The translations under genes and the position numbers were made by a program. A stretch of DNA of 64,000 bases, taken from NCBI GenBank assembly GCA_947501695.1, contig CANMWO010000001.1, positions 1,550,001 through 1,614,000 of the forward strand. The letters run 5' to 3'. The notes under the pieces are model-generated. The model had not been told where the DNA came from, ran no database searches, and saw nothing but the letters and a program-made list of their open reading frames with translations. Source of the DNA: an uncultured Sphingomonadaceae bacterium (GTDB lineage: Bacteria > Pseudomonadota > Alphaproteobacteria > Sphingomonadales > Sphingomonadaceae). Below are positions 32,558 to 42,876 of this stretch, piece by piece; position 1 is the stretch's first letter, and every line of letters begins with the position of its first letter.

Positions 32558-32935
32558 ATGTCCAAATTCGCAGTTATCATGATCGGCGCAATTGCCGTTT
32601 TGCATTCCTATATTGCTTGGTTTGAAATATTTGCCTGGACAACCGTTGGACCAAAAGTTTTTGCGAATTTTGCACCCGACCTATTTGAACCCACAAAGGC
32701 AATTGCCGCCAATCAAGGAATCTACAACGCTTTTCTTGCAGCTGGTCTGCTCTGGTCCTTATTCATTCGCGATATCAAATGGCAAAAACGGATCGCTACA
32801 TGTTTTTTGTTATTTGTCGCCATTGCTGGAATTTTTGGCGCCATGACCGTGTCCCCTCGTATTGCACTGGTGCAGACCGTGCCTGCCGTCGTTGCAATGG
32901 CATTGTTATTGTTGAAGCGGAAAGAGACAATCTAG
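32558..32935 (+). CDS. DUF1304 family small membrane protein
   Basis: A 125-residue protein with four predicted membrane helices (about 5-25, 58-72, 78-96 and 101-119). The blocks HSYIAWFEIFAW and NQGIYNAFLAAGLLW match the DUF1304 family, whose function is unknown. A GGAGG ribosome binding site lies seven bases before the ATG. It is a single plus-strand gene; the 246-base spacer before it (32312-32557) holds no recognisable element beyond this ribosome binding site. Confidence 0.85.
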   Translation: MSKFAVIMIGAIAVLHSYIAWFEIFAWTTVGPKVFANFAPDLFEPTKAIAANQGIYNAFLAAGLLWSLFIRDIKWQKRIATCFLLFVAIAGIFGAMTVSPRIALVQTVPAVVAMALLLLKRKETI

Positions 32936-32984: not shown

Positions 32985-33060
32985 TCCAGTATGTTCCAAT
33001 TAACATTTGACATGAGAACATTATTAGAACATTAATGGTTCATAGAAAGAACATACTGGA
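32985..33060. promoter_or_regulatory. Cluster of five LexA (SOS) half-sites with an outer 12-base inverted repeat
   Basis: Alphaproteobacterial LexA binds GTTC-N7-GTTC. Here GAAC-N7-GAAC (the reverse complement) spans 33016-33030, and GTTC-N7-GAAC spans 33038-33052, so half-sites start at 33016, 33027, 33038 and 33049, exactly 11 bases apart. A fifth GTTC is at 32993. The ends form a perfect inverted repeat, TCCAGTATGTTC (32985-32996) and GAACATACTGGA (33049-33060). The recA promoter in this window has the same box. The cluster overlaps the promoter of the 80-residue membrane protein gene at 33068. Confidence 0.75.
33007..33036 (+). promoter_or_regulatory. Sigma-70-type promoter inside the LexA half-site cluster
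   Basis: A perfect -35 element TTGACA (33007-33012) is followed after 18 bases by ATTAAT (33031-33036), a moderate -10 element. Two LexA half-sites fall inside the spacer and two just downstream, so bound LexA would block RNA polymerase. Transcription would begin near 33043, which rules out the upstream in-frame ATG at 33035 as the start of the next gene. Confidence 0.55.
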
Positions 33061-33067
33061 TTTTGAA

Positions 33068-33310
33068 ATGCTAACTATCGCTATTACCTCCTTTTTTGCC
33101 CTTACACTCGTTGGTGCACTTTTAACCATCGGGATGATGTTTCATGCCTATCAGGGCAAAATAAGAGCAGTGATTATGGCTGAGCTTGGAGATAGAGCGG
33201 CGTCTACAACGGTGATCTCGCAGCGCAATCGCAACGCGGTGGTCAAGTCCTATCGGACTAATGCGCGCCGTCACTCTTTTCAGCAGATTCCATTGCGCGC
33301 TGCCGCTTAA
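33068..33310 (+). CDS. Small basic single-pass membrane protein under probable SOS control
   Basis: I do not recognise this 80-residue protein. It starts MLTIAITSFFALTLV; residues 3-25 form one hydrophobic helix, and residues 30-80 are a strongly basic region (nine arginines and two lysines) with little acidic content, so the tail probably stays in the cytoplasm. A TGGA ribosome binding site lies seven bases upstream of the ATG. The promoter just upstream is embedded in LexA half-sites. SOS-induced division inhibitors in other bacteria (SidA of Caulobacter, YneA of Bacillus, DivS of Corynebacterium) are small membrane proteins in this kind of setting, so a checkpoint role is a reasonable inference only. 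Its last 53 bases overlap the convergent pssA 3' end. Confidence 0.72.
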   Translation: MLTIAITSFFALTLVGALLTIGMMFHAYQGKIRAVIMAELGDRAASTTVISQRNRNAVVKSYRTNARRHSFQQIPLRAAA

Positions 33311-34052
33311 CCTTTGCATAGCTTCGGATGCTGAGTGGAATTAGAATAATATAACCTATGCTGATAGCGCTGAGGGTGATCCACGGATTGGTGATCACAG
33401 CAACGCCAAGCAGGGCAAAACCTGCAAGCGCCTCCAGGCGGATATTTTTGCGTAAGCGAAGCGAAGACCAGCTATAGGTAGCGGTGTTAGATATCATTAA
33501 GAAAGCGATCAAGACGATCCACGGTCCGACAACAAAATAGTGTCGGAACAACTCTTGGTCCGTGATCACCCACAGATAAAGTGGAAGCATAACCAGTCCG
33601 GCAGCCACCGGTGCCGGAATGCCGGTAAGGAAGCCTGCTGATTTATGCGGCTGCTCCTCATCATCAATATGAGCATTGAATCGAGCAAGGCGCAAGGCAC
33701 AGCCAACCGCCATGGTCAGTGAGAGGACCCAACCAAATTGGGGCATATGTTGCAAGGACCAGAAAAACATCACAACAGCCGGCGTCACGCCGAAGGCTAT
33801 AACATCGGAGAGAGAATCTAGCTCGGCACCAAAACGGCTTTGCGCATTAAGCAAACGGGCGATCCGGCCATCAAGCCCGTCTAATATACCGGCCAATACA
33901 ATGGCAGCCGCAGCCAATACCCAATTTTCCATGAACGCAAACCGGACGCCACTCAGGCCAACACATAAAGCCAGTGCGGTAACGGCATTGGGCGCAAAGG
34001 CTCGAAGCGGAATGCCGCGTTCAGGCTTTTGGATGGGCTTTTTATCTGCCAT
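33258..34052 (-). CDS. pssA: CDP-diacylglycerol-serine O-phosphatidyltransferase
   Basis: PssA makes phosphatidylserine from CDP-diacylglycerol and serine in the inner membrane. The 264-residue protein has the full CDP-alcohol phosphotransferase motif (DGLDGRIARLL, then FGAELDSLSD) near residues 60-88 and about seven membrane segments. The ATG at 34052 is preferred; an in-frame ATG at 34109 would overlap psd by 20 bases. psd lies 37 bases upstream on the same strand, so the two phosphatidylethanolamine steps are co-transcribed as psd-pssA. Confidence 0.95.
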   Translation of the reverse strand: MADKKPIQKPERGIPLRAFAPNAVTALALCVGLSGVRFAFMENWVLAAAAIVLAGILDGLDGRIARLLNAQSRFGAELDSLSDVIAFGVTPAVVMFFWSLQHMPQFGWVLSLTMAVGCALRLARFNAHIDDEEQPHKSAGFLTGIPAPVAAGLVMLPLYLWVITDQELFRHYFVVGPWIVLIAFLMISNTATYSWSSLRLRKNIRLEALAGFALLGVAVITNPWITLSAISIGYIILIPLSIRSYAKVKRQRAMESAEKSDGAH

Positions 34053-34089
34053 TAGTTGAAATTGGCAACCTGGATCATGGATATTGAGA

Positions 34090-34824
34090 TCATTGGCCGA
34101 TGCCTTCAATTTCTTTCATTTGTCCGATTTCGGCAATTACGGTTTCACCAGCGATGGTTCGCTGGCCCAAAACAACATTTGGAGTTGTTCCTTTGGGCAG
34201 ATAGACATCCACTCGGCTGCCGAACCGAATAAGCCCGATACGCTGTCCGACAGCAACAAAATCACCTTCTTTGACAAAAGACATGATCCGCCGCGCCACA
34301 AGTCCGGCAATCTGCGTGAAACCGACTTTCAAACCATCATTCCGCTCGACCATGAAATGCTGCCTTTCATTTTCGTCACTGGCTTTATCAAGATCAGCGC
34401 TCAAGAATTTGCCGGAGATATAGGCCTGTCGCTTAACCGTACCCTCAATTGGCGTTCGATTGATATGCACATCAAAGACGCTCATAAAAATGGAAACACG
34501 GATCAGCTCTTCATCGCCGAGACCGCCCTCACCTTGCAGTTCGATCGGCGGCACAACCGGCATGATCAAATTTATTAGTCCATCCGCTGGTGCCACAATA
34601 TATTTATCATCCAATGGCGTAACCCGTTTCGGGTCCCGAAAGAAGGCTAACACCCAAATCGTGATACCCGCCATAGGCCAAGCCAATGTCTCCCATGCAA
34701 AAAATGCAAAAACTGCAGTAATTGCAGCAGAAATAAGTGCGAATTTTCGGCCTTCAGGGTGGATTGGTGGAACGGCCCATTTGACTTCGCCAAGGCCTTT
34801 GTTTGAATATTTTTCTATCGCCAT
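34090..34824 (-). CDS. psd: Phosphatidylserine decarboxylase (short form)
   Basis: Psd converts phosphatidylserine to phosphatidylethanolamine with a pyruvoyl group made by self-cleavage. The 244-residue protein is the short, archaeal-like form common in alphaproteobacteria. The cleavage serine is in [12 protein letters not shown] near residue 202, with the [13 protein letters not shown] block before it. Two membrane segments occur at about residues 25-62. Divergent from icd with a 181-base spacer (34825-35005). Confidence 0.96.
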
Positions 34825-41688: not shown

Positions 41689-42786
41689 TTACTCTTTATC
41701 GTCACCGTCATCGCTATCATCAGCGTTGCCAACCGGGCCTGTCATCATTTCTTCGGCAATTTCATCTTCATTGCCGCGAATTTGGCCTTCCAGTTTCGCC
41801 ATCATTTCCGGGTTTTCGAGCAGGAAGCGTTTTGAATTTTCACGCCCCTGACCAATGCGAACCGAGTCATAAGAGAACCATGCGCCGGATTTCTCCACCA
41901 CACCGGCTTTAACGCCAAGGTCGATAATCTCGCCAACCTTGGAAATACCTTGCCCGTACATGATATCAAATTCGACCTGCTTAAACGGTGGGGCAACCTT
42001 GTTCTTTACCACTTTCACACGAGTCGAGTTACCGACAATATCATCGCGTTCTTTGATCTGACCGGTACGGCGAATGTCGAGACGAACCGACGCATAGAAT
42101 TTCAACGCATTGCCGCCCGATGTGGTTTCAGGATTGCCGTACATCACGCCAATTTTCATCCGCACCTGGTTGATGAAAATCACCATGCATTTGGAACGGC
42201 TAATCGAACCGGTGAGCTTACGCAGCGCCTGGCTCATCAAGCGAGCCTGAAGGCCCACATGGGTGTCGCCCATTTCACCTTCAATTTCTGCACGTGGAAC
42301 CAGTGCGGCCACCGAATCAACAACCAGAACATCAATGGCGTTAGAACGCACCAATGTATCGGTAATTTCAAGTGCCTGCTCTCCGGTATCCGGCTGAGAG
42401 ATGATCAACTCGTCAATATCAACACCAAGCGCATTGGCATAGACGGGATCAAGCGCATGCTCGGCATCGACAAAGGCTGCGGTGCCGCCTGCTTTTTGTG
42501 CTTCGGCGATGACATGCAGTGCCAATGTTGTTTTACCTGAGCTTTCAGGACCGTAAATTTCCACCACACGACCCTTTGGCAATCCCCCGATGCCAAGCGC
42601 GATATCCAGTCCCAAACTACCGGTAGAGATCGATTCGACCTCCATCGCTTTGCGGGAGCCCAGCTTCATGGCCGAGCCTTTACCAAAAGCGCGATCAATC
42701 TGCGCCAATGCGGCGTCGAGCGCCTTTTGTCTGTCTGATGAGTTCAACTGATTATCCGATTCTACGACTTTTAAATTGCCGGCCAT
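41689..42786 (-). CDS. recA: Recombinase RecA
   Basis: RecA forms filaments on single-stranded DNA, drives strand exchange and triggers LexA self-cleavage. The 365-residue product has the Walker A motif [13 protein letters not shown], the [18 protein letters not shown]-terminal block, the [15 protein letters not shown] Walker B region, loop 2 [17 protein letters not shown] and an acidic C-terminus ([10 protein letters not shown]). The ATG at 42786 has AAGGGG just upstream; the frame open to 42828 is leader. A LexA box lies 76-90 bases upstream, and a terminator follows. Confidence 0.99.
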
Positions 42787-42861
42787 TTGCCTGTCCCCTT
42801 CGCTAAATGCTTGTACGTTATCAATCAATGATGGATATGATGTACCGCATTTGTTCTACTA

Positions 42862-42876
42862 GAACAAGAGTGGAAC
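42862..42876 (-). promoter_or_regulatory. LexA (SOS) box of recA
   Basis: In the direction of recA the sequence reads GTTCCACTCTTGTTC, an exact match to the alphaproteobacterial LexA consensus GTTC-N7-GTTC. A further GAAC half-site follows five bases later, so GTTC-N5-GAAC overlaps the box. Its position 76 bases before the recA ATG is right for SOS control. Confidence 0.88.

Follow-up and report, generated by a model that had tools for sequence, protein, structure and literature searches.

The small gene and its promoter

The window analyzed here is a 64,000-nucleotide stretch of contig CANMWO010000001.1 from an uncultured Sphingomonadaceae bacterium (assembly GCA_947501695.1), and our subject is a short open reading frame (ORF) at 33068..33310 on the + strand, stop codon included, which encodes an 80-residue protein predicted to cross the membrane once. 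The in-frame ATG at 33068 is the conserved start at all 30 loci of the genus; the mechanical ORF call begins earlier, at 33035. The protein is strongly basic (isoelectric point 11.8, with ten K+R and two D+E), and hydropathy places its single hydrophobic stretch at the extreme amino terminus, where a transmembrane helix is predicted at about residues 3-25 (33074..33142, + strand). No charged residue stands ahead of the helix, and the tail behind it is basic. The protein ends in LRAAA (33293..33307, + strand), a degron-like carboxy terminus.

Upstream of the ATG are four LexA half-sites, GAAC at 33016, GAAC at 33027, GTTC at 33038 and GAAC at 33049, spaced 11 base pairs (bp) apart throughout. 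The first two form the LexA box GAACATTATTAGAAC (33016..33030, + strand), a GAAC-N7-GAAC element that is the reverse complement of GTTC-N7-GTTC, the consensus LexA operator of the alphaproteobacteria (PMC12700426). The third half-site is inverted, so that the last two read GTTC-N7-GAAC, which is no canonical direct-repeat box, and make up a candidate pair (33038..33052, + strand) in 11-bp register with the box. The candidate -35 element is a TTGACA at 33007..33012 (+ strand), followed after 17 bp by CATTAA (33030-33035, + strand), a weak -10 candidate assigned by reading the sequence. A simple sigma-70 scan calls no promoter here, CATTAA missing the strict rule of that scan. Given these two candidates, the LexA box would overlap the core promoter.

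A single box is not beyond chance in the window, as the exact GTTC-N7-GTTC motif is observed twice against 1.78 expected occurrences, the second being the box of recA. Four half-sites in register, however, form a single run in the window and never arise in 200 first-order Markov simulations; runs of at least three are absent from the rest of the window and arise in five of the 200 simulations. The sequence-only reading of this DNA had described an 80-residue, very basic, single-pass membrane protein behind a promoter rich in LexA half-sites, and both parts of that description hold. Since about 97% of the SOS promoters in Caulobacter have one box (PMC12700426), the additional in-register half-sites make the promoter of the small gene unusual.

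Two observations concern the architecture of such promoters. Doubled operators recur in another genus, where loci L079 and L091 have two boxes each, 25 bp apart (GAACATTTATGGAAC and GAACACAAGGCGAAC in L079). Also, a perfect 11-bp inverted repeat, CCAGTATGTTC / GAACATACTGG, lies on either side of the window promoter at 32986-32996 and 33049-33059; it was rejected as a family feature, as both arms are present only in this genome and in L002 among the 30 genus loci.

The same operator in the genome

An established SOS gene with the operator lies 9.5 kb from the small gene, within the window. The recA gene (- strand, ATG at 42786) is preceded by the LexA box GTTCCACTCTTGTTC (42862..42876, - strand), the far end of which lies 90 bp from the ATG. 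Gene and box together span 41689-42876, and an extra GAAC half-site follows 5 bp after the box. An exact scan of the whole genome finds 76 GAAC-N7-GAAC places, as compared with 112 for the reversed control pattern, which indicates that most genomic matches to the box are due to chance. Nonetheless, known SOS genes are among those closely behind the box: besides recA in the window, lexA and uvrA, together with rmuC and an mmcB-like gene, were recognized in a spot check of 16 chosen ORFs, several of which are not SOS genes by name and which do not amount to a regulon. The boxes before lexA, uvrA and recA identify the GAAC-N7-GAAC motif as the SOS operator of this organism.

Among the other box places of the genome, L064 (contig C2, near 199703) has a LexA-like box, GAACAAAAAAAGAAC, between the divergent genes for radA (sms) and a patatin-like protein. 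In Sphingopyxis, radA is named among the induced SOS genes (PMC6472365), which makes it plausible that radA is SOS-controlled here as well. At L032 (contig C1, near 22102), GAACATAACATGAAC stands at the start of a 272-residue ORF that has no Pfam or NCBIfam match.

Conservation within the genus

The small protein is encoded in its own genome and in 29 of 31 congeners, at 31-91% identity, and the two congeners without it are assemblies that are 67% and 73% complete. TTGACA and half-sites 1, 2 and 4 are present at all 30 loci and half-site 3 at 25 of them; the box starts 52-53 bp before the ATG in every case. Nineteen loci on named contigs of a second collection include those of Parasphingorhabdus flavimaris and several Sphingorhabdus. 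In 11 members of the genus, the first 60 codons have a mean proportion of synonymous differences (pS) of 0.52 and of nonsynonymous differences (pN) of 0.19, with pN below pS in 55 of 55 pairs. Judged by these proportions, this part of the gene is under purifying selection. Codons 41-60 are much freer in the same members (pS 0.57, pN 0.37; pN below pS in 49 of 55 pairs).

Divergent homologues in the family

Divergent homologues were found by protein profiles alone, the box having no role in finding them, and the searches scored at most 14 candidates per genome, so that misses mean little. The first profile, built from 27 proteins of the genus, has matches in 34 of 397 genomes of the family (11 of 96 genera), and ten of these 34 belong to the genus itself. 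Four of its 34 places were given no locus, of which the one in G245 alone was read later, as L155. At 19 of the 20 new loci read in this first distant set, the box lies no more than 200 bp upstream of the start, the exception being L089. The second profile (A2) consists of 34 sequences, the new loci of the first set included, and has matches at 105 places in 100 of 396 genomes sampled across the order (23 of 84 genera). We read 87 of these places; the other 18 are eight known loci, nine re-finds in genomes that had been read under different locus numbers (L097-L102 and L106-L108) and L104 (G415). The box is present in the 200 bp upstream at 75 of the 87 places and in the 200 bp downstream at two. 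Outside the family, the order-wide profile gives one weak match, L212, which has an internal stop and no box. The operator is kept with the orthologues, and the retention of frame and box in relatives, which the sequence-only reading had named as a check on its proposal, is strong both in the genus and at the divergent loci.

For a comparison across the family, 127 of 137 rows were kept as supported members, on the basis of a box no farther than 220 bp away (124 of the 127) or pssA within 400 bp; these rows are not independent, as 30 come from one genus. Their median length is 80 residues, and the hydrophobic 19-mer begins within the first eight residues of the match. By hydropathy, therefore, a short protein with one transmembrane helix, as in inhibitors of the SidA, YneA and SosA type, is found across the 127 members. 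In 77 of them the protein was read from the start of the profile match, and 63 of these 77 begin with M.

Tandem copies of the gene occur in one genome (G158, contig C1, approximately 2190349-2191123), where L148 and L202 are separated by about 600 bp, have no flanking pssA and both end in EAA. An exact LexA box no more than 200 bp away is confined to the second copy, and a GAAC-N8-GTTC precedes the first.

The 34 members of A2 have no match in Pfam or NCBIfam, and in PHROGs they match two families only, one member matching each at E of about 0.0025. The window protein, which had not been recognized from its sequence, thus remains without a family in Pfam and NCBIfam, and PHROGs offers two weak single-member matches. 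Phage and plasmid records contain no match to it (tblastn, E up to 0.01), and an origin in phages or other mobile elements is therefore unsupported. A literature search by title or abstract start, with most subscription journals and preprints outside its scope, found no description of such a gene in sphingomonads. In anoxic Sphingopyxis, SOS genes are induced and ftsW, ftsN, ftsB, ctrA and ccrM are repressed (PMC6472365); the available part of that paper does not mention the small ORF.

The C-terminal Ala-Ala and the topology

The Ala-Ala carboxy terminus is a new point beyond the sequence-only reading, and it changes the picture. The end that is known from ClpXP substrates is present in 119 of the 127 supported members, and 126 of them end in at least one alanine. 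In the control, 25 of 715 long ORFs of the same DNA end in Ala-Ala, these ORFs being mechanical calls that include related copies (pssA and psd) and possibly false frames. The feature is seen in every set of loci (genus, 30/30; first distant set, 18/20; the rest, 71/77) and in every relation to pssA (overlapping, 102/108; adjacent without overlap, 8/9; no pssA nearby, 8/9), with L190, which ends in Ala-Ala, belonging to none of the latter three sub-groups. That the Ala-Ala end merely echoes antisense pssA codons is a real risk in the genus. As a general explanation it was rejected, as 16 of the 18 members free of pssA overlap, from four genera, keep Ala-Ala and all 18 end in alanine.

The tmRNA (transfer-messenger RNA) tag of the organism itself is ANDNEALAVAA. 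The CtrA protein of Caulobacter becomes more stable when aspartates replace its C-terminal alanines, and the alanines are needed for its degradation (PMC4433202). The Ala-Ala end of the small protein is likely to be a proteolysis signal.

No net charge precedes the helix in 126 of the 127 members, and the tail has a median charge of +6. Following the positive-inside pattern, the tail is predicted to be cytoplasmic, with the amino terminus outside and the carboxy terminus inside (N-out/C-in). Because the charge pattern places the tail inside, ClpXP would be the most likely reader of the signal; with the reverse topology, a CtpA/Prc-type protease would be the natural reader.

The pssA neighborhood

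The gene convergent with the small gene (33258..34109, - strand) overlaps it by 53 bp at its 3' end, an antisense arrangement that could conceivably regulate the neighbor. We take this neighbor to be pssA, the phosphatidylserine synthase gene, from features of its sequence and from the adjacent psd, and homologues recur as neighbors at other loci. On the 5' side, the small gene immediately follows a gene for a DUF1304 membrane protein (32558-32935, + strand; Pfam PF06993, E 3e-33). Across the family, pssA is found on the opposite strand downstream at 69 of the 87 later places, 67 of them with the box, and at 20 of 26 earlier loci. It is 822 bp away in L190 and close at the other pssA-linked loci. 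Eight of the 87 places have the box and no pssA in the flank that was read.

The association can also be approached from the side of pssA. Matches to PssA were obtained in 35 family genomes, and the best of them provide 30 loci. The box is present in the 450 bp past the end of pssA at 26 of these 30 loci, as against one of 30 for the reversed motif in the same stretch, a control that is matched in composition. L282, one of the 26, has no such ORF, and the same genome has the gene elsewhere (L148). The exceptions are L254 (gene elsewhere, at L178), L255 (ORF without an exact box), L260 (contig end) and L277, where nothing is seen. Eighteen of these family genomes have no profile match, and in 16 of the 18 the box precedes an ORF that has an amino-terminal helix; that ORF ends in Ala-Ala in all 16 and overlaps pssA in most. 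Similarity of sequence thus misses part of the family when used alone. A chance origin of the box was rejected in view of the run of four half-sites, the retention of the box at genus and divergent loci, and the reversed-motif control.

In the class as a whole, a pssA gene was identified in 79 of 115 genomes, and 40 of 80 places were read, hand-chosen and mostly among the higher-scoring, 39 of them outside the family and one inside. In the 1.5 kb beside pssA, the box occurs in one of the 39 genomes outside the family, and the control motif in 4 of the 40, one of these being the family member's. In other families of the order (20 of 77 genomes read), the 1.4 kb beside pssA has the box in one of 20 and the control motif in one of 20. 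Among the pssA loci read in the family and in the order, L301 holds only 295 bases. The regions read, which cover the pssA locus only, contain no small gene at that locus in other Alphaproteobacteria. The arrangement of the small gene at pssA belongs to the family Sphingomonadaceae. The link looks like an old gene order, because members away from pssA keep the operator and the carboxy terminus, and pssA outside the family is without the box.

Functional interpretation

The operator evidence strongly supports SOS (LexA) control of the small gene. We favor, at a probability of roughly 0.57, the reading that its product is a brake on division, or on a closely related envelope process, which is induced in the SOS response and cleared by cytosolic proteolysis. 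LexA would cover the promoter at the GAAC-N7-GAAC box; upon DNA damage, RecA would trigger cleavage of LexA and the small protein would be made. The protein would insert through its amino-terminal helix in the predicted N-out/C-in orientation and would most likely restrain division, via a membrane partner in the late divisome, while repair proceeds. The cytoplasmic Ala-Ala tail, which resembles the tmRNA tag, may then hand the protein to ClpXP, so that the brake would be short-lived once LexA is restored.

That the small protein arrests division is something we infer from its likeness to known inhibitors. To our knowledge, small damage-induced division inhibitors share no sequence, so the missing family match is uninformative in this respect. 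SidA of Caulobacter is likewise a small membrane protein of an alphaproteobacterium that is controlled by LexA through a box of the GTTC-N7-GTTC type; the protein described here differs in its length (about 80 residues, as compared with 29 in SidA), its basic tail and its Ala-Ala end. DidA, the SOS-independent inhibitor of Caulobacter, has 71 residues, one transmembrane helix and induction by DNA damage in common with it (PMC4211646). YneA of Bacillus and ChiZ of Mycobacterium are also damage-induced single-pass division inhibitors, the helix of YneA binding FtsW (PMC13396833), but both have an extracellular LysM domain, whereas the small protein has no Pfam domain. Membership in the LysM/YneA family was rejected, since Pfam gives no match for the window protein at E up to 1, nor for any of the 34 A2 members at E up to 0.01. 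SosA of Staphylococcus is a LexA-controlled small membrane protein whose C-terminal end governs its turnover (PMC6851548); its carboxy terminus is extracellular, it is a proposed substrate of CtpA and its gene is beside lexA, in contrast to a tail predicted to be inside and a gene beside pssA. Damage-induced small single-pass proteins of known function block division late, SidA and YneA acting on FtsW and DidA on FtsN, with contact to FtsW only predicted for SosA and ChiZ (PMC4211646, PMC13396833, PMC6851548). With ClpXP substrates such as tmRNA-tagged proteins and CtrA, the small protein shares the Ala-Ala carboxy terminus; it differs from them in being membrane-anchored, its degradation being predicted.

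A more specific proposal, which we offer only tentatively, is that the small protein is an undescribed DNA-damage checkpoint protein of the Sphingomonadaceae with a novel architecture. It would be anchored N-out/C-in, its basic cytoplasmic tail would work on the divisome from inside (or link the nucleoid to the membrane), and a ClpXP tag would be built into it, such that the loss of LexA and removal by ClpXP jointly time the arrest. Under this proposal, fast evolution would leave little beyond the position of the helix, the charge of the tail, the Ala-Ala end and the operator, and family libraries would miss the protein for that reason.

Several points weigh against the proteolyzed division brake or the evidence on which it draws. 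The division role rests on analogy, and the tail is predicted to lie on the other side of the membrane from the extracellular C-terminal parts of YneA and SosA. The weak constraint on codons 41-60 leaves no obvious conserved binding surface in the tail. Eight of the 127 members lack the Ala-Ala end; in the genus this end lies opposite pssA codons on the other strand, and only four genera (g105, g51, g97 and g116) supply the 18 overlap-free members. As for the operator, the downstream control at the 87 places (box in two) is largely coding DNA and so is not matched in composition. Ten of the 87 places lack both the box and pssA and are probably false, several having stops or lying inside long frames, and the pssA-linked loci L089, L109 and L111 have no exact box within 200 bp.

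Other readings share part of this evidence. The SOS operator, the single hydrophobic helix and the basic character would suit an SOS-induced membrane-active peptide similar to TisB, a bare hydrophobic peptide that lowers the membrane potential; such a product would slow the cell with no binding to the divisome. A protein of about 80 residues whose tail is charged and whose end is degron-like is no bare hydrophobic peptide, and we regard this reading as unlikely. Less probable is a division or envelope brake whose tail is periplasmic and whose end is cut by a CtpA/Prc-type protease. Prc/Tsp proteases prefer small C-terminal residues, and cleavage of the CtpA type has been proposed for SosA (PMC6851548). 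The positive-inside pattern, that is, the basic tail and, in 126 of the 127 members, no net charge ahead of the helix, argues for a tail on the other side of the membrane.

The recurrence of pssA opposite and downstream of the gene, at 69 of 87 and 20 of 26 loci, would be explained if the synteny were functional and the small protein an SOS-induced regulator of PssA, Psd or membrane composition. Old gene order accounts for the synteny equally well, and eight places have the box with no pssA, while eight of nine members without a pssA neighbor keep the Ala-Ala end. Also, 79 of 115 class genomes have pssA, but the box stands in only one of the 39 regions read outside the family; we consider such a regulator improbable. 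That box and ORF are a chance arrangement or a non-coding relic could be argued from the single box expected by chance in 64 kb and from the weakly constrained tail. It is contradicted by the retention of box and frame together in many genera and by pN below pS in all 55 pairs, and is given next to no credence.

Implications for the Sphingomonadaceae

In alphaproteobacteria outside Caulobacter, the stop of division after DNA damage is little described. Our analysis yields a candidate gene whose location, convergent with pssA, is predictable, together with an operator and a candidate degradation signal. If the proteolyzed division brake is the true reading, it would add a membrane-anchored DNA-damage brake that is read and cleared from the cytoplasm, and such brakes could be found through the operator, the synteny and the carboxy terminus where sequence similarity fails.
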